From Dehalococcoides mccartyi (GTDB lineage Bacteria > Chloroflexota > Dehalococcoidia > Dehalococcoidales > Dehalococcoidaceae), in assembly GCF_001889305.1 (NCBI RefSeq), contig NZ_CP013074.1:1-64000 (forward strand): a stretch of 64,000 nucleotides of DNA, read 5' to 3'. Below the pieces are notes generated by a model. The model saw only the letters and a program-made list of their open reading frames with translations, did no database searches and had not been told where the DNA came from. This document shows positions 39,662 through 59,524 of the stretch, in pieces. Each line of letters starts with the position of its first letter. Within the stretch, counting starts at the first letter, position 1. A program made the position numbers and the translations under genes.

Positions 39662-40504
39662 CTAAGCTGTGCGGCTTCGGAAAAACCCGATTCCAATAAA
39701 GACAATGCCTACACCTATTATTATCCAGAAGGCATAGACACTGGCCCACATAATCATACTCTTGGTGGACTCAGCGGTACTTACCATCTCGTCAATGGTT
39801 TCGGTGGTATAGGCTATGGTTGAAATGAATATAGGCATGCTGACTGAGGGTGCGGGAGAAATTTTGAGGGTGGTAGTGGTATCTGAATACACAGGCACTC
39901 CGCTGACCGGTTCTACTTTGATATTTATCAGGAAATCTCCGGCTTGGGGTATGCCGGTATTAGCATAAGTACCCAGATTTATATTCTTCTGGTCTACCTG
40001 AAAGACATAAACAGTCAGACCCTGATAGGTTTCCTCTTTGACAAATTTGGCAGTCAGGCTCTGGTGGGCTGTTGCAGACCAGAATGGATAATCCTGCTTC
40101 TGGGTATTTGCCGGAAAGGTAAACTGGCCGGTGCGGCTGATATCCCCGTAACCGGCAACATTCGCCCGGGTAGTTCTGTCCAACCCGTAAACTTCCTCTG
40201 AACCAAAGGGCAACTCTGTACCCGCCTGAGCGTGGGTAAAAGTAATCTTCTGGTCCATAAGCAGAACATCATCTTCCAGACCACTGGCCTTCAGGGCACG
40301 GGTAACATTGACCGGCATGGCAGGATTAAGCTGATTGGTAGCAGAGTTCAGTACCTGAACAGTACCGGAAAAATAATAATTCTGTTCGTAATCCGCCGGC
40401 AGTTTAGCCATAACCGGGAAAAACACATACACCCAGATAAAAGCCACCGCCACTAAGAGAGTACCTAAAAATGAGGGCCACCAACGTTTGAACAACCTAG
40501 TCAA
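39662..40504 (-). CDS. DUF3068 (PorA-family) membrane-anchored protein
   Basis: 280 residues: an N-terminal helix (about 12-32), a large extracytoplasmic domain and a C-terminal helix (about 252-274). Layout and segments such as DYPFWSATAHQSLTAKF and YQGLTVYVF fit DUF3068, best known from actinobacteria. Function unknown. It lies between rdh units, with its own promoter and terminator. Confidence 0.75.
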   Translation of the reverse strand: MTRLFKRWWPSFLGTLLVAVAFIWVYVFFPVMAKLPADYEQNYYFSGTVQVLNSATNQLNPAMPVNVTRALKASGLEDDVLLMDQKITFTHAQAGTELPFGSEEVYGLDRTTRANVAGYGDISRTGQFTFPANTQKQDYPFWSATAHQSLTAKFVKEETYQGLTVYVFQVDQKNINLGTYANTGIPQAGDFLINIKVEPVSGVPVYSDTTTTLKISPAPSVSMPIFISTIAYTTETIDEMVSTAESTKSMIMWASVYAFWIIIGVGIVFIGIGFFRSRTA

Positions 40505-40695
40505 CCTCCTACTTCATTTTTGTATCACGCTAACTTGAAACCAAAGCAAATAATTTTAGGGCAGATATGCTAAAGGGTCATAAAAGGCATGCTGTACACT
40601 GAAAGCGAGTAATAATAACATATTATTTTACTTTTTGAAAGATTATTTCAATTTTATTCATTATTATAGGGAAATAATCACACCGATAGAAATAC

Positions 40696-40726
40696 CAGTG
40701 CCCGAACTTCTCAGATTCGGGCACTG
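40696..40726 (-). terminator. Hairpin after rdhB (40773)
   Basis: CAGTGCCCGAA pairs with TTCGGGCACTG; weak T tract on the minus strand. Confidence 0.6.
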
Positions 40727-40772
40727 TAGCAAGTGTTAACGCGGCATATTTATACCTGCGGCATTACAGGTT

Positions 40773-41045
40773 TCAGACTTTAGCAATTCTCCTTGCGGCC
40801 AGTTGCCAGCTGAGCGCTAAGAGGATAAGAGCCGGCAAACCGGTAACCAACAGGAACATGTAGGCGGCCTTGGATTCTACTTCTTCAAAGCTGCCCATAA
40901 AGTTTTGCAGGGTAAATACCAACAAAAGCAGCCCAAGTATGCCGATAACCCACTCGTACCAGGTAAGGTTAAAATTTTTGCGTCTCAGCCACCAGATTAA
41001 ACCCAGTACTAAAGCCCCAATTATGATTCCTATAAAAAACCACAT
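40773..41045 (-). CDS. rdhB: Reductive dehalogenase membrane anchor RdhB
   Basis: 90 residues, three helices, TWYEWVIGILGL, basic end ARRIAKV. 19 bases after the rdhA at 41065-42567. Confidence 0.93.
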   Translation of the reverse strand: MWFFIGIIIGALVLGLIWWLRRKNFNLTWYEWVIGILGLLLLVFTLQNFMGSFEEVESKAAYMFLLVTGLPALILLALSWQLAARRIAKV

Positions 41046-41064
41046 AAAGCTTTAATCTCCTTTC

Positions 41065-42567
41065 CTATTTACCGTAACCGGCATCAGCCGCAACAATTGT
41101 TGAGTCCTGACCAAGGGTAGGCAGACTGAGATCCCACCATGTTTCGGCTTTTTCAGGGTCAGTACCATAGCCAAAGGCAGCACCCAGCTTGTAGAAGTAG
41201 GTGTTGAAGAGAGGAACATTGGCAATAGTGCCTTTGATAATCTGATGAACCAGAGCGCCTCGGTTTACGGTAAAAGTACATTCACCCCAGCAGATACGGC
41301 AGCCATGGGAGGTTTCGTTGGAATACTGGCGGCAGAGAGGCAGATTGTTATAAAAGGCTTTAGTGCCCTTCACCGAGTATATAGTCTCTTTGCCCTCTGT
41401 CAGCGGCAAATCCCAGGAAGGTTCTTTTTCTTTAGATATACACTGCGGCGGACAGGAATCTGCACACTTCTGGCAGGAGTGGCAGAAACGGTAAATGCCT
41501 GCATCTATGGGGTGGGTAGGTTCAAGAGGCAGGTCCGTTAAGACGCCATACAAACGTCCGGGTGCACCATATTCGGGGGTGAGAGTATAAAGCTTCTGGC
41601 GGCTGGCTTCACCCAAACCGGCCATGATAGCTGCTCCTCCCTCGGAACCCACATAACGGGAATCATTACCGATAGTGCCGATAAGCTGGTAACCAAGGTA
41701 ACGCAGGAAGTTGTAGGTGGAAGCGTGCAGGTTAGCACAATTGTAGAAGGTATTAGCATTTGCCATACCGCCCAGCAAAGTGCCAGCCGAACGCCAGAGT
41801 TCATTTGAACCTTGGGTTGAAAGGGCTATTTCCCACAGGGGTACATTGGGGATAACCAGTTTTTCAGTAGTTTCATATGCTTTAGGTACACTTTCAAAGA
41901 CAATAGGACGGGCAGCGGTAACAGGAACGGTAGTACCGATGTATTTTTCGTTGTTGGAATCGCCCTTCTCATACGAGAAAATAACATGGTCACGATGTTC
42001 CTGAGTAAGCTCGGTATAGCCCACCAGCGAAGCACCATAAGCCCGCATAGCCGCCCTAAGCATACGGGAAGCCTCTTCAGGTGAACCCGTCCACTTTGGT
42101 TCACCCCGTTCTTCAGGAGTTTTTACCGGAGCGGGGTCTTTGGTTTCAGCCCAACCGGGAGAAGTGCCCTGAGAAACCCGTTTAAAACTACCGGCCAGTG
42201 CCCTGGAACGGTAAGTATACCCGGGATAATTTGAAGCAGTTCTTTCAGCCAGTTCGGCAGCGGATAAAGCTGCAGCACCCAAAACTCTGTCTGCCCCGTA
42301 ATAAATCGCTCTGACTCTGGCGGATTGTCCCTGATTACGCCCGTCATGGCGTTCCATCATACTGAAATCCACCTCTATAGTAGGGTCATCAATAGGGCGC
42401 TCTTTGACCCACCAGGGACGCGGCTGAACAGCTGTATCAGAGGCGATAAGTTCGTCAATGTCATGGAAAACAGGGGCTGAAGCAGCAACTGCGCCAATAC
42501 CTGCCCCAGCAAGACCCAGACCCTTCATGAAATCACGGCGTGATACCATTGAATGAAACTTGCTCAT
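41065..42567 (-). CDS. rdhA: Reductive dehalogenase catalytic subunit RdhA
   Basis: 500 residues from ATG 42567, chosen because GGAGG lies six bases upstream and the Tat signal (MSKFHSMVSRRDFMK) starts there; the frame is open 27 codons further, through the conserved leader block. Fe-S motifs CHSCQKCADSCP and spread CX10CX2CX3C (CRQYSNETSHGCRICWGEC). No regulator gene is adjacent. TATAAT (42697-42702) is the best -10; an inverted repeat (42754-42782) lies further up. Confidence 0.96.
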   Translation of the reverse strand: MSKFHSMVSRRDFMKGLGLAGAGIGAVAASAPVFHDIDELIASDTAVQPRPWWVKERPIDDPTIEVDFSMMERHDGRNQGQSARVRAIYYGADRVLGAAALSAAELAERTASNYPGYTYRSRALAGSFKRVSQGTSPGWAETKDPAPVKTPEERGEPKWTGSPEEASRMLRAAMRAYGASLVGYTELTQEHRDHVIFSYEKGDSNNEKYIGTTVPVTAARPIVFESVPKAYETTEKLVIPNVPLWEIALSTQGSNELWRSAGTLLGGMANANTFYNCANLHASTYNFLRYLGYQLIGTIGNDSRYVGSEGGAAIMAGLGEASRQKLYTLTPEYGAPGRLYGVLTDLPLEPTHPIDAGIYRFCHSCQKCADSCPPQCISKEKEPSWDLPLTEGKETIYSVKGTKAFYNNLPLCRQYSNETSHGCRICWGECTFTVNRGALVHQIIKGTIANVPLFNTYFYKLGAAFGYGTDPEKAETWWDLSLPTLGQDSTIVAADAGYGK

Positions 42568-42753
42568 AAATTCCTCCAATCCTCTTAACTGAAACCTGTT
42601 CTTCCACAACGCCACCCAGTCTCTCCTGAGCGCCATAATGCAAGCCACACCTCACTAAGAAAATATCTTAATCAGTGAACACCAATTCATGAATAAATTA
42701 TACAATCAGATAGGCCTTTTACTATCCGCTTTTATACGTAATATATGTTAGGC

Positions 42754-48796: not shown

Positions 48797-48985
48797 CTAA
48801 CCTGATAAATAACGAATAAAAGATTTTCGATTTAATACAAGATGGATAAGTATTGAGGCAATAAAAGCTATTGCCACAACCACATGGTGGCCGGAATTGC
48901 CGGGTTGGACATGGGCTTCCGCAATTCCGGTTATTATGGTAGCCAAGAATAATACAGCCATAGACAAACAAATAACTTTTCTCAT
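48797..48985 (-). CDS. Small DUF4405-like membrane protein
   Basis: 62 residues. Signal-like helix, then HVQPGNSGHHVVVAIAFIASILIHLVLNRK. Its His placement before and inside the second helix resembles the cytochrome b-like DUF4405 half-module. Overlaps the ferredoxin gene by four bases (ATGA). Heme binding is unproven; Dehalococcoides is generally described as lacking cytochromes, which makes the similarity notable. Confidence 0.6.
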   Translation of the reverse strand: MRKVICLSMAVLFLATIITGIAEAHVQPGNSGHHVVVAIAFIASILIHLVLNRKSFIRYLSG

Positions 48986-49239
48986 AGGGCTGCCCCTGAA
49001 CTAACTATAGAACGCACCGGTGTAATAGCCTGCTGAGGACAGACCTTAGCACATTTCAAACACCCTTTGCAGACATCTGGCCTGCGGATATGGGCATGAG
49101 TGTGGGAAAAAATGCTGATACTTTCTATAACACCATTAGGACAATTTTCAACACATTTCCAGCAAGCAAAGCATTTGGACGTATCAAGATAAATATGTTC
49201 GGTTGAGTTGTGTCTAGGTATAGGATTGTGTAGTTTCAC
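48982..49239 (-). CDS. Two-cluster (2[4Fe-4S]) ferredoxin-type protein
   Basis: 85 residues from GTG 49239, chosen for AAGGAG seven bases upstream; this also avoids overlap with the MerR gene. Two cluster motifs: CFACWKCVENCPNG and CKGCLKCAKVCPQQ, separated by a His-rich linker. Middle gene of a MerR-ferredoxin-DUF4405 set. Confidence 0.85.
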   Translation of the reverse strand: MKLHNPIPRHNSTEHIYLDTSKCFACWKCVENCPNGVIESISIFSHTHAHIRRPDVCKGCLKCAKVCPQQAITPVRSIVSSGAAL

Positions 49240-49256
49240 CAGTTTTCTCCTTGCGA

Positions 49257-49967
49257 TTAGCTGTGTTCCTGAAGGTGACGGGCTTCCTGCCGATAGATTT
49301 TGGTAGCCAAACACCCCTTGAAATCACTTGCCAGTTTAAACAATTCTTTAAGGGGGATTACTTCGTGGTTCGGCAAATGATGGATAATCTCATGCATAGT
49401 TTTGAATTCACTGCGGATTATTTCCATGTATTGCCTGTAAATCTCAAAATCAGCCGGTTTCAAGCCAAATGTAAACAGCCGTTTAGCTATTTGGGCGATA
49501 CGTATATCTATACCTTCAAACACCGGCCCTTTTTCAGTTTCGGATGCAAAAATAACTCCCTTGGCAACCAGTTCCTTTATATCTGTTTCGGTTAAACCGG
49601 AGACAGATATCAGTTCAGCCAGAGATATACTGCCGGATTTAGTTTCATCAAGCGTTGGCTGAAATATATCACCCAGTACAGATTCCATCTCGGCCACATG
49701 CTCAATATCCTGACCATCCCGCCTGGCCTGTAATATAATTTTTATTACAGATAAAGGGAGGAATTTATTTGATTGAAGCTCTTTGATCAGCAGGATATCC
49801 TTAACGCAATCAGGGCTATAGTAGGCCATATTGTGAGCCGTCTTGAGGGAGGGAAACAGCAGACCTTCACGGGTATAGTAGTGGATAGTCGGCAAAGAAA
49901 CCCCGGTTGCTTTTGCGACTTCACTTATACGCAGTAGTCCCTGTTTGTTTATATCTGATTTTCTCAT
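49257..49967 (-). CDS. MerR family transcriptional regulator
   Basis: 236 residues from ATG 49967. N-terminal MerR winged helix (LRISEVAKATGVSLPTIHYYTREGLLFP), helical dimer region, then a longer effector region without a clear metal-binding Cys cluster. The first ATG at 49988 lies in the -10 region, so the later start is preferred. An inverted repeat in the promoter suggests self-regulation of this three-gene unit. Confidence 0.88.
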   Translation of the reverse strand: MRKSDINKQGLLRISEVAKATGVSLPTIHYYTREGLLFPSLKTAHNMAYYSPDCVKDILLIKELQSNKFLPLSVIKIILQARRDGQDIEHVAEMESVLGDIFQPTLDETKSGSISLAELISVSGLTETDIKELVAKGVIFASETEKGPVFEGIDIRIAQIAKRLFTFGLKPADFEIYRQYMEIIRSEFKTMHEIIHHLPNHEVIPLKELFKLASDFKGCLATKIYRQEARHLQEHS

Positions 49968-49987
49968 CTCAACTACTCTATAGTGCA

Positions 49988-50017
49988 TAGTATATACTTA
50001 CACTATATACTAGTCAA
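49988..50017 (-). promoter_or_regulatory. merR promoter with operator inverted repeat
   Basis: Minus strand: -35 TTGACT (50012-50017), 17-bp spacer, -10 TATACT (49989-49994). TAGTATATA (49988-49996) and TATATACTA (50004-50012) form a perfect 9-7-9 inverted repeat filling the spacer and -10. Confidence 0.65.
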
Positions 50018-50060
50018 GAGACAAAAAGCCCTACTACAATGTGAAATCACATCATAAGCA

Positions 50061-51098
50061 TTACTCTGGAAAAGCCGCTTTCAAAACCCTGAGAGCCCGC
50101 AGGGTAATCCACTTGCTGGAATGTCTGTTTTTTTCTATGTCCATCCAAGTTTTGCCGGTAAAGCGGCATTCCATAGGCCAGCGTCCTTTGGGGTCTTGCT
50201 TGGAAAGCACCAAATCTATGGCTTCAGCCAAGCGGGGGTCACGGGCATAACCCAGAGCGGACAATACATCCAGCGTTTGCAGAATATCAGCTGCATAACC
50301 CAAGGGATAACCGAAACTAAACCAACTGGAACTTGGTTTGCTGCCGGTGCCAAAGGGGTAATCCGCCGCCACAGGGTTGTACCGGAACAGGAAATCCAAG
50401 CCTCGGTCCAGTGCCCGTATTACAGCCGGGGTACGTTTTGACGGAGGAATTCTGCTAAGGGCGTTGAGTGACTTTACAGCCCCCCAGCCGCAAGACAATC
50501 CTCCATTAGGACCGCAGTTGAACATTGGCCCGGGAGTATAAGCATAATAGCGGTCTGTTACACCCGCAGCCGCGGAATCTGCCATGCCATCCCCGGTAAT
50601 AAATCTGGCATGTTTTTCAATGGCAGTTTGCAGACGTTCATCTTCCAGCCACCCCAAATCTATCAGAGCCGCTTCAAGGTTGCCCGCCAGACAGTGAATA
50701 AAACCTGAAGGAGTGCCGTTATAAGAAAACCAGCCGGCCTTTGACTGGTTATATTCAAACAGGTAATTGCAACCTTTTTTTACCCTGCCATCAGATTTAT
50801 CTGCCCCCAGCTGGGCCAGAAAAACAATCTGCCAGACAGTACTCTGGTATTTGGGTGAATAACCCGCACCGGGGTGCAGCCAGTACCCTTCAGAGGACTG
50901 GGCAGCCAGTATAGAGGGAACAGGCCCGCTTAACATAATGGAGGCCTTAGCTTCTTTCAGCGCAGCGTCATTTTGCCCGCATCCGATAATATCCCTGAGG
51001 GTAAAGTAACGGACTGCCGGCTGGGATAAATCTGTTTCCAGTAACCAAGGAATAGGGTCTGCCCGCAATTTGTCTTTCCATGTTACTTTTTCAGACAT
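50061..51098 (-). CDS. Alpha/alpha-toroid (prenyltransferase/terpene-cyclase-like) protein
   Basis: 345 residues from ATG 51098, chosen for AGAGGA eight bases upstream. Repeated helix-turn units with QSSEGYWLHPGAGY, SKAGWFSYNGTPSGF, GLSCGWGAVKSLNAL and KQDPKGRWPMECRF recall the (alpha/alpha)6 barrel of squalene-cyclase and prenyltransferase proteins. The DXDD or DDXXE catalytic acids are not evident. Such genes are sometimes labelled nitrogen fixation protein in databases, which the sequence does not support. Function unknown. Confidence 0.7.
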   Translation of the reverse strand: MSEKVTWKDKLRADPIPWLLETDLSQPAVRYFTLRDIIGCGQNDAALKEAKASIMLSGPVPSILAAQSSEGYWLHPGAGYSPKYQSTVWQIVFLAQLGADKSDGRVKKGCNYLFEYNQSKAGWFSYNGTPSGFIHCLAGNLEAALIDLGWLEDERLQTAIEKHARFITGDGMADSAAAGVTDRYYAYTPGPMFNCGPNGGLSCGWGAVKSLNALSRIPPSKRTPAVIRALDRGLDFLFRYNPVAADYPFGTGSKPSSSWFSFGYPLGYAADILQTLDVLSALGYARDPRLAEAIDLVLSKQDPKGRWPMECRFTGKTWMDIEKNRHSSKWITLRALRVLKAAFPE

Positions 51099-51176
51099 CA
51101 GCATGTTCCTCTGTATAGTCTTTTAACTATTATATTGCCGGTCTTGGGGCAAAATCCAGATTGCTTCTTAATAATA

Positions 51177-51230: not shown

Positions 51231-51527
51231 CTATTTAGTTAAAGCTTTTTTAATAACTCCTTTGGGGTCACTGGCAAGCAGCACAATTTCCCATACCAGA
51301 AACCCGAAGATGATTACGCTTATTCCTAAGAAGGCTGCGTCCTGATTAATTTCCAGAAATTCACCTCCTTCCTGAAGATAGGCCATTACATGATCAACCA
51401 GCCACATTATGCTTGCACCCCAGAACATAAGACTGAGAAAGCCCAGTTTATACTTGTCATTCGGAGATTTTATATACCAGATAGCAGTGGTAATAATAGC
51501 GGCAGCCAAAGTCATTATCAGCCACAT
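51231..51527 (-). CDS. Small three-helix membrane protein
   Basis: 98 residues, three helices. Its start overlaps the stop of the preceding gene (TAATG), so the two are translationally coupled. Nothing recognized. Confidence 0.7.
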   Translation of the reverse strand: MWLIMTLAAAIITTAIWYIKSPNDKYKLGFLSLMFWGASIMWLVDHVMAYLQEGGEFLEINQDAAFLGISVIIFGFLVWEIVLLASDPKGVIKKALTK

Positions 51528-51919
51528 TATGCACCTGCACCAATGTTATTTGCCCTGGCAGATGCTTTAAACTTGGCATCTGCAACAAGTACCATGACTG
51601 CCCAGATGGCAGTGACTGTAAGCGCCATAGCGCCGCCTATTGTAGCCATTTCATGCAGCATGGGAGAGATATCAGCCGGATTCTCCATAGCCGTCAGGAA
51701 CGGCCACCACGGTACAACCTCGCCATGCCAGACATGCTCCAAAGCCAGCAGCACCGTGCCGCCCCAGAGCATTTTGTTGAGCCAGCCCAGTTTCCTGCCC
51801 CAGCTTATGCCCGATGTATTATCCGCTTTGATATCCTGCTGTTTTTCCTTTTTTTCTACTGTTTTCTGAACAACCGTGGTAATCACGGCCTCGCCTGCAA
51901 CCACCAAAAAACATGCCAT
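51527..51919 (-). CDS. Membrane protein, unknown
   Basis: 130 residues from ATG 51919, supported by AAGGAG ten bases upstream; the frame is open for 26 more codons. Helix at the start, charged KKEKQQD linker, then two helices separated by WHGEVVPWWPF. Paired with the next gene; both lie between the alpha/alpha-toroid gene and the hydrogenase-like operon. Confidence 0.65.
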   Translation of the reverse strand: MACFLVVAGEAVITTVVQKTVEKKEKQQDIKADNTSGISWGRKLGWLNKMLWGGTVLLALEHVWHGEVVPWWPFLTAMENPADISPMLHEMATIGGAMALTVTAIWAVMVLVADAKFKASARANNIGAGA

Positions 51920-52156
51920 ACCCTGCTGTCTCCTTTCATTTATGAGGTGTTGCCTGAATGCTATTTGCAACTGATTTATTATTGCATCTTGTTGCATTTA
52001 GTAATTGTTGCAATTATAAGGCGTACTGCTATGCGGCGTCAAGACCAAATAAACATAAGCTTTTCGGGGATTCAAAATGGCTGAGAGCCAAAGCAGATAC
52101 AGAAATAGCAGAATGTAAAAAAGGAGACTCTGGCCGCAGGGGGCAACAGGGAGGGG

Positions 52157-52672
52157 TTATTTCTTACCCAGAGACCGCATAAGCCCCAGCAGGGCAGTGA
52201 TTATCTGGATTGGCTCAGGCGGGTTGCCCGGTATCTTCAGGTCTACCGGCAATATTTTATCAACCCCGCCCAGTACCCCGTAACCGCCGCAGACAATGCC
52301 GTTGCCGCAGGCATCATCTCCCAAGGCTATTACCAGCTTGGGGGAGGGCATGGCATCAAAAGTTTTCCTGACGGCAACAGCCATATTCTGGCTGACCGCA
52401 CCGGTAACTATCAATATATCTGCGTGGCGGGGCGAAGCAACGAAGCTGATGCCGAAACGCTCAATGTCATAATAGGGGTTGGAAAGGTTATTCAGTTCTA
52501 TTTCGGCAGAGTTGTCACTGCCGCTGTCCAGCGCCCTGATAGCCAGACTCCGCCCGAAGATAGCATGTATCTCGGTTTTCAGGGCAATGCCCAGTTTATC
52601 AAAGTCCGAATCACCCTTTGGCATCTGCCGGCATACTTTGGGTTTAAAAATATTGTTTAAAACGTTTTTCAC
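52157..52672 (-). CDS. Hydrogenase-4-like small subunit (NuoB/HyfI homologue) lacking cluster cysteines
   Basis: 171 residues from GTG 52672, chosen for GAGG eight bases upstream; an ATG at 52702 overlaps the previous gene. Homologous to NuoB/HycG small subunits (SLAIRALDSGSDNSAEIEL, VTGAVSQNMAVAV, YGVLGGVDKILPVDLKIPGNPPEP). The four residues that normally bind the proximal 4Fe-4S cluster are Asp53, Ala56, Asp120 and Asn150 instead of Cys. The fold looks conserved, so this is specialization rather than decay. Last gene of the operon. Confidence 0.88.
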   Translation of the reverse strand: MKNVLNNIFKPKVCRQMPKGDSDFDKLGIALKTEIHAIFGRSLAIRALDSGSDNSAEIELNNLSNPYYDIERFGISFVASPRHADILIVTGAVSQNMAVAVRKTFDAMPSPKLVIALGDDACGNGIVCGGYGVLGGVDKILPVDLKIPGNPPEPIQIITALLGLMRSLGKK

Positions 52673-52682
52673 GGCAGATACC

Positions 52683-54263
52683 TCACAGGTCTGTCCCGGC
52701 ATAAGATAGGTTCAGGCTTTTATTTATCAGGGGAAAGTCCGGAATAATATCCCCCAGCACCGCATGCTCTATGGCCTGCCAGTTGCAGTAAGAGGCGGTA
52801 CGCACTTTATAACGTTCAATTTTCCCGTCCCTTAGCCACAGCCAGTGGAGGGACTGCCCGCGGGGAGACTCAACCAATACCAGGCTGTAACCGTTTTGCG
52901 GCTTAAGCTGGACTATATATTCACCGGCTGAAAGCCTGGAAGCGGTCTGGCGTATAAGCCCCAGCGAGGTCTGCACCTCGAAAACCCTTACCTTAAACCT
53001 TGCCATTACATCACCTTCGGGCAAAACAGGCGGCTCAAACGCAAGCTCAGAGTACAAGCCGTAAGGCTGGTTTAAACGGGTATCTATATCCGCCCCCGAA
53101 GCCCTGGCTGCCACCCCGGTAATATTAAGGGGTACAAGCAGGCGGTTATTTATAATGCCGGTAGTTTCAAAACGGTCAACCACCGAGGTCTTGGCCAGTG
53201 CCTTTTCAACCTGCTGGTTAAACCTGCCCTCAAAGACACGCAGGTAATCTGCCAGTTCATTTACAATCCCGGTAGGTATATCCCGAAGCAAGCCGCCGGG
53301 GGTAATTATGCCCTTTAAAAAGCGGGAACCGCTAAGGCGTTTGTTCCAGCGCATCAGTTCTTCACGCAGTGCCATAAGAGCAGCCGCCCCCACCGGATAA
53401 GCTACGTCTGTGAGCATACCGCTAAGGTCTGAAAGGTGAGAATAGAGCCTTTCCATTTCCAGCAATATTAACCTAAGCTGTTCAGCCCGCCTGGGCGGAC
53501 GGATAGAAGAGATGTGTTCAACCGCCGCAGAGTAGGCATAAGCATTGGCGGCGGATTCATCACCGCTTACAGATTCGGCTATTTTAAGCCCGAAATCTAT
53601 ATCCTTGCCCATGGCCAGTTTTTCAAGCCCGCGGTGAGTATAAAACAGCCTGACTTCCAGATTTAAAATGGGCTCACCTATGGCACTGAAACGGAAATGC
53701 CCCGGTTCAATAATACCGGCGTGCACCGGCCCTACTCCGACTTCATACACACCTTCGCCGCTTACTTTTTTAAACGGATACATGGCTTCATCCTCCACCC
53801 CGGCAGGCAGACAAAGCGGCTGATTTTTAAAACTTTTTACCAGCGGATGGAAATTGGCAGGGTAGGTTTCATGCAGCCAAAGCCGGCGGCGGTCAAAGGC
53901 ATTTTCAAATTCACAGCCGTAGCTATCCCGTATTTCCCTCTCAAAGTAGCAGGCGGAAGGGAAAATGGCGGCAACAGAGGCAACCGGACTGTCTGTACGG
54001 CGGATAATTACCAGCGTCCCGGAGTAATTCCTTTTTTCAAATACGTATAAAAGGCTGAGTCCTTCGTAACCTCTGAACCCCTCCAGGCCGAATAAGCCGA
54101 TAAGCCCGAAGCCGTCTTCGGCCAGCTTCGGATAGAGGGTAGCGGCTTCAGTCCAGTCAAGCCCCAAATAATAGTCTTTGTTTGCCCCTTTTTCCAGCTT
54201 GAGAGGATTGATAGCAGGGCTTAGAAATTCGGACAGATAAGTATATAAATCAGGTATTTTCAT
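52683..54263 (-). CDS. Hydrogenase-4-like large subunit (NuoCD/HyfG homologue) lacking Ni ligands
   Basis: 526 residues: NuoC-like part (about 1-165, with CYFEREIRDSYGCEF) fused to a NuoD/HycE-like part (GPVHAGIIEPGHFRF, LEVRLFYTHRGLEK). The N-terminal CXXC that binds Ni-Fe in hydrogenases is replaced by Ser233/Glu236 (ESVSGDESA), and the C-terminal CXXC by Ser520/Gly523 (LSYAGTDL). The protein ends there without the usual processed tail. It cannot carry a normal NiFe centre. Similar losses define the energy-converting hydrogenase-related (Ehr) complexes. Confidence 0.9.
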   Translation of the reverse strand: MKIPDLYTYLSEFLSPAINPLKLEKGANKDYYLGLDWTEAATLYPKLAEDGFGLIGLFGLEGFRGYEGLSLLYVFEKRNYSGTLVIIRRTDSPVASVAAIFPSACYFEREIRDSYGCEFENAFDRRRLWLHETYPANFHPLVKSFKNQPLCLPAGVEDEAMYPFKKVSGEGVYEVGVGPVHAGIIEPGHFRFSAIGEPILNLEVRLFYTHRGLEKLAMGKDIDFGLKIAESVSGDESAANAYAYSAAVEHISSIRPPRRAEQLRLILLEMERLYSHLSDLSGMLTDVAYPVGAAALMALREELMRWNKRLSGSRFLKGIITPGGLLRDIPTGIVNELADYLRVFEGRFNQQVEKALAKTSVVDRFETTGIINNRLLVPLNITGVAARASGADIDTRLNQPYGLYSELAFEPPVLPEGDVMARFKVRVFEVQTSLGLIRQTASRLSAGEYIVQLKPQNGYSLVLVESPRGQSLHWLWLRDGKIERYKVRTASYCNWQAIEHAVLGDIIPDFPLINKSLNLSYAGTDL

Positions 54264-54266
54264 AGC

Positions 54267-55748
54267 TTAAAAACCTAAACCTTTGACTATCTGGCTTAGA
54301 AAATCAGCCAGTACGGGAGGCTGGAAAACACCTAAAAACACTACTCCGGCCATAATAACATAAACCGGCAGTTTCATAGTCAGGGGAGTTCGGAAAACAG
54401 GGCGGTCGGCAGTTTGTTCACTGCGGGTAAAGGCTTTAAGCAAAAAGATGGCAAATGAGGAAGCCACCAGCAACAGGAAAAAGAGTACCACGAGCACCAG
54501 CCAGACCGAAATACCGCTTAGCTGGATAAGGACATTCAGTTCAGACAAAAAGACCGGGAACATAGGCAAGCCGGTGATAGCGGCACTGCCCATAATAACA
54601 CCCCAGGCAGCCACCGGCTGGAGGCGGAATATATCAAATATACGGTCAAAACGGTCACTGCCGTATTGGCGGCGGATAATCCCGGCCGAAAAAAACAGCC
54701 CGCTCTTGACCAGCGAATGTGCCAAAGTATGAAAAAGCATCCAAAATACTGCCAGAGGTGTACCTATGCCTATAGCCAGCAGCATGATACCCATATGCTC
54801 TATGCTGGAAAAACCAATTAGTTTCTTCAAGTTGCGGCGGGAAAGCATACTAAAGGCAGCTACCCCTATGCTGAGTATACCTAAACCTATCAGCACATTT
54901 GAAAAAGTTTCGCCTATCTGGCTCTGGCAAAGGAGGGCACTCAGGCGGAGAATACCCACTATGCCTATATTCAGCACGGTAGCAGACATCAAGGCGGTAA
55001 CCACTGATGGGGCTTTGGCATAAGCCGCCGGCAGCCAGTTATGCAAAGGGACTAACCCGCTCTTAGCCAACAACCCGGTCAGTATCAGCAAAGCACTTAA
55101 ACCCAGCACCGATGGTGAAAGCAGGGGAGCTAAGCCAGCAAGTTCGTCCCAGTTCAAAGTGCCTGTACCGCTCACCTGACGGGTAAGGGAGAAAAGAATA
55201 ATAAGCCCGATGAAGGCAAATATCATGGCGGTAGAGGCAATAAATATATACTTCAAAGCGGCCACCAGGTTGTCACGAGCATTTAAGGTGGCAATGAGCA
55301 GGGCGGAAAGAAGCGTGCTCAGCTCTAAAAACAGCCAGCATAAGGCCAGATTATTGGCAAAAAAGGCAAAGGTAATTACGGCAAGAATCAGGTTAAAACC
55401 CAGATAGAAAACGGGCAGGTTTTCCGTATCCAGCTCTTTATTTGAAATAAGATGGCTGACATAACCGCGGGAATAAAGTGCCGCCAGTATAAACACCACT
55501 GAAGCAATCAATATCTGAAATATACCCAACCGGTCAATGAATAAGTAACGGCTTTCCATGAAATAATGGGGCAGGGGTAAAGCTAAAAGTACCCAGAGGC
55601 TCAGCCCCAGATGCCACAAGCCATGCCCCAAACTGAATCCTGCCAGCATTTTCGGGGACAAACCGCTCCTGCGTAAACGCAAGCCCAACAGAATTCCGCC
55701 CAGAAGTACCGAGGGTAAAATATAAGCCAGCAGTATCAGATTTTCCAT
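54267..55748 (-). CDS. Hydrogenase-4-like membrane subunit HyfF (NuoL/M/N antiporter-type)
   Basis: 493 residues from ATG 55748, which overlaps the previous stop (TAATG); an ATG six codons upstream is possible. About 14 helices. Antiporter-type segments with LAKSGLVPLHNWLPAAYAKAPSVVTALM and SSIEHMGIMLLAIG, including the conserved Lys and His used in proton transfer. One of two such subunits in the complex. Confidence 0.9.
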   Translation of the reverse strand: MENLILLAYILPSVLLGGILLGLRLRRSGLSPKMLAGFSLGHGLWHLGLSLWVLLALPLPHYFMESRYLFIDRLGIFQILIASVVFILAALYSRGYVSHLISNKELDTENLPVFYLGFNLILAVITFAFFANNLALCWLFLELSTLLSALLIATLNARDNLVAALKYIFIASTAMIFAFIGLIILFSLTRQVSGTGTLNWDELAGLAPLLSPSVLGLSALLILTGLLAKSGLVPLHNWLPAAYAKAPSVVTALMSATVLNIGIVGILRLSALLCQSQIGETFSNVLIGLGILSIGVAAFSMLSRRNLKKLIGFSSIEHMGIMLLAIGIGTPLAVFWMLFHTLAHSLVKSGLFFSAGIIRRQYGSDRFDRIFDIFRLQPVAAWGVIMGSAAITGLPMFPVFLSELNVLIQLSGISVWLVLVVLFFLLLVASSFAIFLLKAFTRSEQTADRPVFRTPLTMKLPVYVIMAGVVFLGVFQPPVLADFLSQIVKGLGF

Positions 55749-56428
55749 TACTTTTTCTTGAACCATTCACCCAGCGGCGTAAAGCGGGGGTGAAAATCCT
55801 CTATAGTTGAATCTATGCCGAAAGCCAGCACCGTAAGAAGCAGTACCAGTATCACCAAATCTATCAGGACCAGTATTTCCAGTATAAAGGGGAGTTCCGC
55901 TACGAATAAACCAAACAGTATTGCCCCGTTTTCCATACTCAGATAGCCCACTATCTTGGTCAGCATTTTCTTGCGGCTGAAGATGACCATCATGCCCATT
56001 AGTGCCATGGACACCCCTATAACCGCCCCCAGAGTAAACAGCCGCTCAGGCATTACTTCGCCCAGAAGATTTGAAAACACCTGATAGACGCCGAAGATAA
56101 GCAGAATGCTAACTATCAGCGAACTGACAGGGTAAAGGAAGCGGAACTCCAGATCACGCCTGATATTCATCTGGTAAAGTATCCGGTTTAATATGCGGGG
56201 TATCAGAAAGACCTTGCCGAATAGAGTGAGCAGGACAATAAAAAGCAGGGTCAGGTGGCCGTCATGTATAAAAAATGCCAGAGCTACCAATGCCACCAGC
56301 AGTGACTGCAAGGCATAGGTTTTGAACAAGCTAACAAGACTGCGCTGCCATAAAACCAGTGAGGACGTAACCAGCACCAGCACCAGCAGTATTTTCAGTA
56401 TGTCGTTTAAAGGTATATTTTCTAACAT
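55748..56428 (-). CDS. Hydrogenase-4-like membrane subunit HyfE
   Basis: 226 residues, six helices; NuoK-like part plus extra helices as in HyfE (SMENGAILFGLFVAELPFILEILVLIDLVI). Located between the HyfC- and HyfF-like genes, three bases after the former, one-base overlap with the latter. Confidence 0.85.
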   Translation of the reverse strand: MLENIPLNDILKILLVLVLVTSSLVLWQRSLVSLFKTYALQSLLVALVALAFFIHDGHLTLLFIVLLTLFGKVFLIPRILNRILYQMNIRRDLEFRFLYPVSSLIVSILLIFGVYQVFSNLLGEVMPERLFTLGAVIGVSMALMGMMVIFSRKKMLTKIVGYLSMENGAILFGLFVAELPFILEILVLIDLVILVLLLTVLAFGIDSTIEDFHPRFTPLGEWFKKK

Positions 56429-56431
56429 CTT

Positions 56432-57382
56432 CTACGCCAAAAACTTGAATAGTACGGTGATAAAGGAAAAGAAAAAGGCCAGCATAAAAAGCCCCGGCAC
56501 CCTGAAAAGGCGGAATTTTGCCATAAGGGATTCAAATATACCCACTCCCACCGCAAGCAGACTGCCCTTTATCACAAAAGCCAGAAATGCTACTGCTATC
56601 CCGCCTGCCGCAGGTGCTGATGCCAGCCCCCAGGGAGCTATAATATTTAAAAGCACCCCCATCAGCAGGGTTTGCTTAAGGGCATGTGAAAGCTCTATCA
56701 GTGCCAAATCCGGCCCGGAGTATTCCAACGTCATGGCTTCATGTATCATAGTCAGTTCCAGATGGGTTTCAGGGTTGTCTACCGGTATACGGGAGGTTTC
56801 TACAATAAGGATTATAAATAGAGAAATACCGGTAAGTATCAGGCTGGGATTGGACAGGAAACTGCTTTCCCGCACCTGAGCGAACATATCAAACAGGCTG
56901 GTTGTCTGAAGCACATATGCCAGCGCCCCGAATACGATAATAATCACCGGCTCTATAATGGCGGCAAGAGTCATCTCCCGTGAACTGCCCATACCGCCGA
57001 AACTGCTGCCGGCATCCAGCCCCGAAAGCGCCATGAAAAAGCGGGACATAACCATGAGGTATAAAAACAAGATGATATTGCCCAGACCGGGGTCTGCCGC
57101 AGGTATAAAGACCAGAGGCACAGACAGAGACGCCACCATCATAAATGCCAGACTCAGGTATGGGGTAAGGCGGATTATGAATGAGGTCTGATAGGAATAA
57201 ACCCTTTCCTTCTTGAAAAGCTTGTACAACTGGTAATAGGTCTGTAAAAGGGGCGGCCCCACCCGTCCCTGGGCATAAGCCTTGACCTTTTTAATAAGGC
57301 TGATAAAGAGGGGAGATACCAGCAGGGCCAGAGCGGTATTTATAAAACCGTATAACACCAGATTTAAGCTCACCACAGCCAC
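56432..57382 (-). CDS. Hydrogenase-4-like membrane subunit HyfC (NuoH homologue)
   Basis: 316 residues, eight helices. Diagnostic KAYAQGRVGPPLLQTYYQL near residue 35 and VDNPETHLELTMIHEAM, the NuoH-type loop that meets the peripheral arm. These acidic loops are intact, so coupling between arm and membrane part may remain. Overlaps the HyfB-like gene by 13 bases. Confidence 0.9.
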   Translation of the reverse strand: MAVVSLNLVLYGFINTALALLVSPLFISLIKKVKAYAQGRVGPPLLQTYYQLYKLFKKERVYSYQTSFIIRLTPYLSLAFMMVASLSVPLVFIPAADPGLGNIILFLYLMVMSRFFMALSGLDAGSSFGGMGSSREMTLAAIIEPVIIIVFGALAYVLQTTSLFDMFAQVRESSFLSNPSLILTGISLFIILIVETSRIPVDNPETHLELTMIHEAMTLEYSGPDLALIELSHALKQTLLMGVLLNIIAPWGLASAPAAGGIAVAFLAFVIKGSLLAVGVGIFESLMAKFRLFRVPGLFMLAFFFSFITVLFKFLA

Positions 57383-59304
57383 CTTGCCGCCAGTATAACC
57401 AGCAGAACGGTTATAAAGCTGTACAGGATATGGCTGCCCAAATCAACGTCCTGCAGGCGGGATACGTAACGGGAAATACGCCCGAACAAACCGGCAATTG
57501 GCAGGTAAATATACTCATCAAAAAACTTTAATGTGTGAATGGCGGACTTGCCCTGCTTGAAAATAGCCTGCTGGTTATCTTCGTAACTGCGTTCATTGTA
57601 GTGGCGGGTGCGGTATATCAGCCGGAATATCTGGAAAAGAGGTTCGGCAAAACCGGCGGCGGTATACTCAAAGCGGGGGGTGGGGCGGATATATCCGCAA
57701 GCCCAGGTCTCACTCCGGCGGCTTTCCCGGGGGGAAAACAGCCTGACCATACCGAAGACCAAAACCCCGAATATAACCAGCACCAGGCCAACCAGTGACA
57801 TATCCGGTAAGTCAAAACTGTAACCTGCCATTTCGAATATAGGAACAGTAAAAAGACCCAGCACCAGACAGGCAACTGCCAGTATAGCCGGCCCTATAAT
57901 CATACTTTTTGAAACTTCCTTGGCAGAAGCCGCTTCCTGACTGCGGGGCATAGCCAGAAAGACCTCCCCAAAAGCCTTTACAAAACAGGCTGCCGCCAAA
58001 GCCGAAGTAAGTGCCAGTATGGCCAGCACACTGAAAAGAAGTATCTTTATACTGCTTTCGGCCAGAGAGAAGGACTGGAAAAAAGACTCAAAGAGCATCA
58101 GCTCACTCATAAAACCATTGAAGGGAGGCAGAGCGGATATGGAAACCGCCCCAACCAGAAAGATAACCGTGGTATAGGGCATAAGTTTCACCAGCCCGCC
58201 CATTTTTTCAATATTGCGGTCACCTACCGCAATCACCACCGACCCGGCAGTCATAAACAGCAGACTTTTAAAAATGGCATGGTTCAGGCTGTGAAATAAG
58301 GCCGCACCGAGTGCCAGCATAGCCATAGTATCCAGCCCGTAGCAACCAAAAATAACATACAGGCCAATACCCATCATAATAATGCCGATATTTTCTATAC
58401 TGCAAAAAGCCAGCAGCATTTTAAGGTCATGTTCTTTAAATGCATAGATAATGCCGAGCAAGGCACTTATCATCCCCAGCAGAAGTATTGATACCCCCCA
58501 CCATATTTCCGGGCTGAGAATATCCGTAAGGAAACGTACCAGACCATAAACAGCCACTTTGAGCATTACTCCGGACATAAGGGCGGAGACGTTGGAAGGA
58601 CTGGCAGAATGGGCATACGGCAACCACTTGTGAAGGGGTATGATACCGGCCTTTATCCCAAAGGCCAGAAATGCCAGTATAAAAACAAAGCTCTGAATAC
58701 CGGACGGCGCACCGTCAAGGCTAAGTTCAAAACTGCCGTTTTGGATATACATAACCACAGCCATCATCATCAGGAAAACAGTGCTTAGCTGGGTAAGCAC
58801 AAAATAATAGACGCCGGCCCGCTGGGTAAATACCCCCTGATAATCATTCATCATCAGGAAAAAGGAGCTAAGCGCCATTATCTCCCAGAAGAATAACAGA
58901 CTAAAGGTATTGGCTGAGGCCACCACCCCAACCATGGAAAGTATGAAAACACTCATAACAGCTGAAAGCAGGTTGGCACGTTCGTTGGAAGACAGGTGAT
59001 GGTTGTATCCCAGAGAGTATATTGCTACACAAAGCGAAATAAGGCTGATTATTATGACAAAAAACGATGCCAGATGGTCAAAATGAAAGGCTATGTCCAG
59101 CCCGGGTGCGATACTCCAGAGGAGAATATCAAGCGGACTGCCGAAAAATACCGGTAAAGACCCGCAAATCAGGCATACCGCAGCCGTTATAATCAGCCAC
59201 AGCACCGCCTGCCAAACCTTTTTCCTGCCGTGATTTAACACTATGCCCGTCAGGGCAGCAGCAAGAAGTAACCCCCCGCCGCCAAGCAATAAACCCGCTG
59301 TCAT
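57370..59304 (-). CDS. Hydrogenase-4-like membrane subunit HyfB (NuoL-type antiporter)
   Basis: 644 residues from ATG 59304; a TTG at 59316 is an alternative closer to GAGG. About 16 helices; FGIKAGIIPLHKWLPYAHSASPSNVSALM and FCSIENIGIIMMGIG are the conserved antiporter motifs with Lys, His and Glu. First gene of a six-gene operon (B, C, E, F, G, I in Hyf terms). No HyfA/HyfH-type ferredoxin subunit and no maturation gene is present. Confidence 0.9.
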   Translation of the reverse strand: MTAGLLLGGGGLLLAAALTGIVLNHGRKKVWQAVLWLIITAAVCLICGSLPVFFGSPLDILLWSIAPGLDIAFHFDHLASFFVIIISLISLCVAIYSLGYNHHLSSNERANLLSAVMSVFILSMVGVVASANTFSLLFFWEIMALSSFFLMMNDYQGVFTQRAGVYYFVLTQLSTVFLMMMAVVMYIQNGSFELSLDGAPSGIQSFVFILAFLAFGIKAGIIPLHKWLPYAHSASPSNVSALMSGVMLKVAVYGLVRFLTDILSPEIWWGVSILLLGMISALLGIIYAFKEHDLKMLLAFCSIENIGIIMMGIGLYVIFGCYGLDTMAMLALGAALFHSLNHAIFKSLLFMTAGSVVIAVGDRNIEKMGGLVKLMPYTTVIFLVGAVSISALPPFNGFMSELMLFESFFQSFSLAESSIKILLFSVLAILALTSALAAACFVKAFGEVFLAMPRSQEAASAKEVSKSMIIGPAILAVACLVLGLFTVPIFEMAGYSFDLPDMSLVGLVLVIFGVLVFGMVRLFSPRESRRSETWACGYIRPTPRFEYTAAGFAEPLFQIFRLIYRTRHYNERSYEDNQQAIFKQGKSAIHTLKFFDEYIYLPIAGLFGRISRYVSRLQDVDLGSHILYSFITVLLVILAARWLW

Positions 59305-59524
59305 TTTAAAATACAAATCCTCGTAAAAAGATAAAGAGCCCCTGTAGGCTCCTCTATTCTATCTCTATGTAAATAGTAGATTTATATTCTAGATATTGCC
59401 CTGTCCAAAGTCAAAACACTCCCAAAGCTGGGCTGCCTTAAACTATTTTACATAACGGAATATACCTTAAACAGCCCCTCAAATTTAACACAATCTTAAT
59501 ATCCGCTTAGCAGTGGCTTAATAA

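Follow-up and report, generated by a model that had tools for sequence, protein, structure and literature searches.

A six-gene operon of Dehalococcoides mccartyi related to complex I and group 4 hydrogenases, with a predicted peripheral arm that lacks the classical cofactor ligands

The operon and its peripheral subunits

The window is a stretch of 64,000 nucleotides from the 1.52-Mb genome of Dehalococcoides mccartyi, and its minus strand carries six genes running from 59316 to 52157 in the order hyfB-C-E-F-large-small (Table 1). Adjacent genes are spaced by -20 to +3 bases and thus either overlap or almost touch; the six-gene operon codes for no ferredoxin and for no other Fe-S subunit. In the antiporter-type and HyfC subunits, 31-34 of 33-34 members of the clade described below retain the charged residues, which mostly match E. 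coli Hyf; the conserved Glu and Lys residues of the membrane arm occupy the positions of channel residues that are conserved in complex I and Hyf. Further charged residues are specific to the clade, among them K230, K294 and D580 of HyfB and E230 of HyfC.

Table 1. Genes, motifs and codons of the operon, in window coordinates
Feature	Position	Strand	Basis or conservation
HyfB/NuoL-like antiporter-type subunit	57370..59316	minus	E145, K222, K350, E405 kept
HyfC/NuoH-like membrane subunit joining the arms	56432..57382	minus	E144, E195, D202, E209, E215 kept
HyfE-like membrane subunit	55748..56428	minus	E166, E184 invariant
HyfF-like antiporter-type membrane subunit	54267..55766	minus	E148, K235, K314, K354 invariant
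Large subunit, NuoC+NuoD/HycE/EhrL-like, 526 aa, without NiFe cysteines	52683..54263	minus	sequence comparison
Large subunit, first motif (residues 231-240), SVSGDESAAN replacing RxCGxCxxxH	53544..53573	minus	alignment
Large subunit, second motif (residues 517-526), LNLSYAGTDL replacing CxxCxxR	52686..52715	minus	alignment
Small subunit, NuoB/HycG/EhrS-like, 181 aa, without the four 4Fe-4S cysteines	52157..52702	minus	Pfam PF01058, E 1.7e-21
Codon of D63 (first Cys of CxxC), GAC	52514..52516	minus	D in 81/81 family members
Codon of A66 (second Cys of CxxC), GCC	52505..52507	minus	T/A/P/V in family
Codon of D130 (third Cys), GAT	52313..52315	minus	D in 78/81, E in 3
Codon of C132	52307..52309	minus	only Cys conserved in family, 81/81
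Codon of N160 (fourth Cys), AAC	52223..52225	minus	N in 79/80 legible, D in 1

The reading frame of the small subunit is unbroken over its whole length. An earlier, sequence-only reading began it at a GTG (52672), 30 bases downstream of the start adopted here; both starts are possible, because similarity in relatives ends upstream of residue ~11. Residues 53, 56, 120 and 150 of that reading are 63, 66, 130 and 160 of the 181-residue protein. It had claimed that these residues replace the four NuoB/HycG cysteines in an intact frame, and had proposed an alignment with NuoB, HycG, MbxJ and MbhJ as a check. Alignment with E. coli HycG, HyfI and Chloroflexota homologs places D63, A66, D130 and N160 exactly on the four cluster cysteines and, together with the codons, bears the claim out, with the numbering shifted by 10. 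The N2 cluster cysteines of NuoB are likewise absent when the protein is compared with the same genome's own NuoB. Positions 63, 130 and 160 are conserved in the family, whereas position 66 is variable.

Cysteines resupplied at shifted positions, which the sequence-only reading had named as evidence that would count against it, were rejected as an explanation. No substitutes are present at shifted small-subunit positions; the sole family-conserved cysteine, C132, lies two residues past D130 and is no replacement for the cluster ligands, because a single cysteine cannot hold a 4Fe-4S cluster.

The large subunit has lost its ligands in a similar manner. Both of its NiFe motifs are replaced; the CxxC near the C terminus reads S-Y-A-G, and the protein stops directly behind the second motif. 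Within the first motif, G234, D235 and E236 are invariant in 76/76 family sequences. The HRGxEK loop of the quinone/NiFe cavity is retained, with H210, R211, G212 and K215 invariant. Relative to E. coli Hyc/Hyf, the large and small subunits together have lost all eight metal-ligand cysteines, so that, judged from the alignments, the classical cofactor ligands are firmly absent from the arm. The earlier statement that the arm would have neither a NiFe centre nor a terminal Fe-S cluster is thus supported at the level of the ligands, by both large-subunit motifs and all four small-subunit cysteines. AlphaFold models, which are single chains without cofactors, confirm the folds: the closest structure to the small-subunit model (pLDDT 87) is MbhJ (6cfw_J), and to the large-subunit model (pTM 0.89) HycE (7z0s_E).

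The closest relative examined in a congener genome has a small subunit 96% identical to that of the window, presumably DET1570 of strain 195. DET1570 is annotated 'hydrogenase, group 4, HycG subunit' and has been monitored on arrays (PMC5102406), and the proteome of strain CBDB1 includes the Hyc complex (PMC6113397); expression of the operon's counterparts is therefore documented.

Several other minus-strand genes lie nearby in the window. Two short overlapping genes (51231-51997; 156 and 98 aa, each with two hydrophobic stretches) lie 159 bases downstream of the small subunit; they are confined to the genus among the loci compared and have no Pfam match over the cut-off. Further downstream, 48982-51104 encodes a 347-aa protein with a faint squalene-hopene-cyclase-like match, a MerR-type regulator and a two-cluster ferredoxin. 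At 39662-42648, a reductive dehalogenase with a Tat signal adjoins a small membrane protein, after which comes a 280-aa protein with PgfA (envelope lipid trafficking) as its top NCBIfam match, below the cut-off.

Distribution of the replacements and order of the losses

The same replacements are carried by 13/13 Dehalococcoidales orthologs (genus, family and order; 57-96% identity) recovered in a protein search of 400 Chloroflexota genomes. A DNA-pattern scan of one genome per species yielded 80 further loci, which with the window make up the family counts of 81. They span Dehalococcoidia, methanogens, Bathyarchaeota and DPANN archaea and are mostly archaeal, with hosts among Methanoregula, Methanosarcina, Methanospirillum, Bathyarchaeota, Woesearchaeota, Altiarchaeota, Aenigmatarchaeota and Thermoplasmatota. 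All legible copies follow one pattern: D/x/(D or E)/(N or D) in the small subunit, and SGDE and NLSYAGTDL in the large subunit. The scan's patterns included motifs around small-subunit positions 63 and 130, whereas position 160 and the large-subunit motifs lay outside them. As a pattern-free check, a profile search was run on 294 genomes from the phylum of a Methanosarcina. It matched 18 genomes, 17 of which were read, and 16 of these 17 have the same replacements, the exception being the locus L200; a search free of motif patterns also found two further Dehalococcoidia that carry them. The replacements are conserved in Dehalococcoidia and at least seven archaeal groups, far beyond chance. The family is nevertheless patchy, being present in 13/197 sampled Dehalococcoidia genomes and 18/294 genomes of the Methanosarcina phylum.

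Individual archaeal loci show peculiarities of arrangement. In Altiarchaeales IMC4 the small-subunit gene is solitary (L081:7995-8513, L210) and lies ~0.8 Mb from the matching large-subunit gene, and another Altiarchaeales locus (L079) has a second, partial copy of the membrane genes. A β-carbonic anhydrase gene stands at the start of the Methanoregula-type loci L071, L074, L075, L082, L087, L090, L096, L132, L138 and L147; in Methanospirillum stamsii (L150:102-761) such a gene is near hyfB in a different orientation.

Trees from alignments stripped of the ligand columns recover the cysteine-less proteins as monophyletic (SH-aLRT 99-100), and by its sequence relationships the small subunit is a peripheral subunit of an Ehr/Hyq-branch complex. 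Related plasmid operons of Hyq type (L169-L178; Rhizobium, Azospirillum, Burkholderia, Cupriavidus, Paraburkholderia and Rhodococcus) share this gene order in most cases and encode an SGD-type large subunit (R.SGDST.A ... FN.SYSGHDL) with a small subunit that has all four cysteines. The archaeal L200 (G595:C16:32500-35100) likewise combines an SGD-type large subunit without NiFe cysteines with a small subunit bearing four cluster cysteines. The plasmid group is sister to the cysteine-less clade in one tree (94), but the order is unresolved once L200 is added. Because these operons and L200 share the SGD-type large subunit yet keep the four small-subunit cysteines, the NiFe ligands were probably lost before them. 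Comparison of the motifs suggests that the later changes were loss of the small-subunit cysteines, loss of the large-subunit motif arginine and a change from Ser/Thr to Glu at position 236.

The opposite intermediate also exists. In six Chloroflexota loci (L045-L050; genomes G113, G201, G121, G029, G089 and G013) the small subunit lacks three or four cluster cysteines, replaced by Asp/Glu/Ala/Thr/Ser, whereas the large subunits keep the NiFe cysteines (for example ERICGACSLSH...CYSCLDR). Their small subunits resemble that of D. mccartyi in having Asp in place of the first cysteine, Asp or Glu in place of the third and, apart from one case with Ser, Asp in place of the fourth, but differ in retaining the second Cys in 3/6, in a fused ferredoxin domain and in their separate placement in trees; hypD is found in only 1/6 of the genomes. 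A small-subunit-first order of loss based on these loci was set aside, since they group with NiFe-bearing Chloroflexota, outside the cysteine-less clade. An AU test does not reject a common origin of the six loci and the clade (p 0.24 concatenated, 0.56 small, 0.10 large), and there may have been one shared loss or several. With the two half-way states, the 'simultaneous' loss in both subunits put forward in the sequence-only reading is probably wrong. At another locus, L062 (G001:C94), the four small-subunit cysteines (here D, V, A, T) and the NiFe ligands of the large subunit are missing as well; the locus groups with a different Ehr-like branch, and its tree position would make it a possible independent loss.

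Selection and possible roles of the arm

Between the window and two congeners, dN/dS (NG86, YN00) is 0.10-0.14 for either arm subunit and ~0.03-0.2 for the membrane subunits, and purifying selection acts on both the arm and the membrane subunits. The ratio of synonymous to nonsynonymous change had been named earlier as the measure to take, and relaxed selection is not seen; neither frameshifts, stops nor dN/dS near 1 were seen among the strains compared. That the genes are decaying remnants of a hydrogenase, as the disappearance of every catalytic and cluster ligand might imply, is scarcely credible: such remnants would not be expected to show this dN/dS, identical replacements maintained across two domains, or intact frames and an intact operon, and decay was rejected on these grounds. 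The earlier argument for selection over decay stands on the same three observations and on the conserved membrane charges, whereas the 'new function' attached to it is read from conservation.

Complex I and its relatives are understood to pump ions across the membrane with the energy of electron transfer in the peripheral arm. For the operon described here, we give roughly even odds to its being a redox-silent, six-subunit member of the complex I/group 4 hydrogenase superfamily that moves H+ or another cation and whose peripheral arm has been repurposed. The two antiporter-type subunits would still conduct H+ and/or Na+, while the former electron-transfer arm would act as a structural and gating module, its carboxylate/amide pockets occupied by a proton, divalent cation or small ligand in place of the redox cofactor. 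The complex would then work as a regulated cation/H+ exchanger, not as an H2-making or H2-using enzyme. The residues that replace the ligands are themselves conserved (D63, D130 and N160 in the small subunit; S233-G-D235-E236 and S520/G523 in the large), and the recurrence of Asp, Glu or Asn at three of the four cluster positions speaks for a charged or metal-like site more than for simple loss. The arm may still hold a non-classical cofactor or ligand. More tentatively, and at somewhat below even confidence, Dehalococcoidia and many archaea may share a deep superfamily branch that operates without any redox centre in its peripheral arm, so that the uptake of a cation, proton or ligand by the old cluster and NiFe sites would drive or gate ion movement through a complex I-type membrane arm. 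The distribution of hypD, which is needed for assembly of the NiFe site, adds little. Among hosts of the complex, it was not found in seven small archaeal genomes or in one Altiarchaeota, which fits a redox-silent arm weakly because the archaeal genomes are reduced or incomplete, and the test is only partly informative because several NiFe-bearing Chloroflexota bins also lack it.

A different possibility is that the complex is still an oxidoreductase, with a quinone, flavin, F420, differently ligated metal or a partner's cluster in the old pockets, and pumps by redox. The conserved HRGxEK loop would suit this, complex I NuoD functions without NiFe, and the Geobacter Ehr complex increases with formate (PMC7894505). 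The related Hyq also lacks NiFe ligands and alters H2 turnover genetically (PMC3357923), a point against a redox-silent arm, although HyqI keeps its four cysteines. We nonetheless consider an oxidoreductase unlikely. No N2-type cluster is left to carry electrons to the membrane interface, one conserved cysteine with two carboxylates and an amide is a poor Fe-S ligand set, and the operon has neither a ferredoxin, flavin or F420 subunit nor, across the clade, any recurrent partner gene within 8 kb of the loci beyond the six core genes, save lineage-specific neighbours.

Two further proposals are each quite improbable. Precedents exist for coupling NuoL-like subunits to CO2 hydration, and the arm could have become an energised CO2/bicarbonate device in the style of DabA/DabB or cyanobacterial NDH-1MS, its acidic pocket holding a metal and the ion flux powering hydration or transport. 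A β-carbonic anhydrase gene does lie just upstream of hyfB in ten Methanomicrobiales loci, which leaves open that the complex may have a CO2-linked role there. This neighbour is confined to Methanomicrobiales, though; no Pro_CA match passes the cut-off in the Dehalococcoides genome, and the replacing residues, C132 excepted, do not include the Cys/His set of a zinc site. Pseudo-enzyme pairs often survive as scaffolds, and the same genome encodes Nuo and Ech paralogs on which a catalytically dead scaffold or regulator could dock, without transport of its own; this, too, has little to recommend it, since proton-channel charges would not then have to remain unchanged in more than 30 distant members, and some hosts of the operon possess hardly any or no further complexes of this kind, as in a 0.9-Mb Woesearchaeota genome with one match.

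Comparison with known systems

Loss of the NiFe ligands is already known from Ehr and Hyq. Anderson et al. (2009) pointed out that NiFe cysteines are missing from the large subunits encoded by Mhun_1817-1822 and by the M. acetivorans and M. mazei homologs, genes that 'may not encode hydrogenases' (PMC2686161); the M. hungatei genome paper still gives ehrABCDLS as ferredoxin-reducing (PMC4704411), and a 2025 paper calls the function of Ehr unknown (PMC12342949). No mention of the loss of small-subunit cluster ligands was found in the Ehr/Hyq literature examined, and an earlier mention may exist. Ehr (ehrABCDLS; Mhun_1817-1822, Geobacter GSU0739-45) is likewise a six-subunit, group-4-like operon with a large subunit devoid of NiFe cysteines, and the Methanospirillum relative L150 has the exact cysteine-less variant. 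The loss described in the papers examined concerns the large subunit, whereas here the small-subunit Fe-S ligands are gone too.

The Hyq 'endo-hydrogenase' (HyqBCEFGI) of Azorhizobium and rhizobia has six genes in the same order as here, B-C-E-F-large-small, as seen in Rhizobium plasmid operons. In Azorhizobium, HyqG lacks both CxxC motifs while HyqI has four cysteines, and every HyqI ortholog is described as having these cluster ligands (PMC3357923). The D. mccartyi large subunit shares the missing CxxC motifs and the SGD motif, but Hyq keeps the motif Arg and has Ser/Thr/Ala where the D. mccartyi clade has E236, and the D. mccartyi small subunit, lacking the four cysteines, falls outside Hyq as so described.

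The membrane arm is homologous to that of group 4 [NiFe] hydrogenases, whereas none of their defining motifs (RxCGxCxxxH, CxxC and the four small-subunit cysteines) is present. With E. coli Hyc/Hyf the complex shares homologs of HyfB, C, E, F, G and I and the conserved membrane-arm residues; it lacks the HyfA/HyfH Fe-S subunits, HyfD, the HycI protease and the C-terminal extension. If the reading as a redox-silent transporter is true, it would correct the physiology of D. mccartyi, where 'Hyc' is counted among five hydrogenases, and the picture of methanogens, in which Ehr is drawn as a ferredoxin-reducing hydrogenase.

Among ion-moving relatives, no DabA-type, carbonic-anhydrase-like Pfam match was found among the operon and neighbouring proteins scanned. 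Mrp Na+/H+ antiporters have a MrpA-G set without a NuoB/NuoD-like arm, whereas the D. mccartyi operon has NuoB- and NuoCD-like subunits. The redox-free exchange that Mrp carries out with NuoL/M/N-like subunits is the working mode proposed here, and the complex would then be a natural separation-of-function variant in which the membrane arm as a non-redox transporter, and the contribution of the peripheral arm, could be tested.
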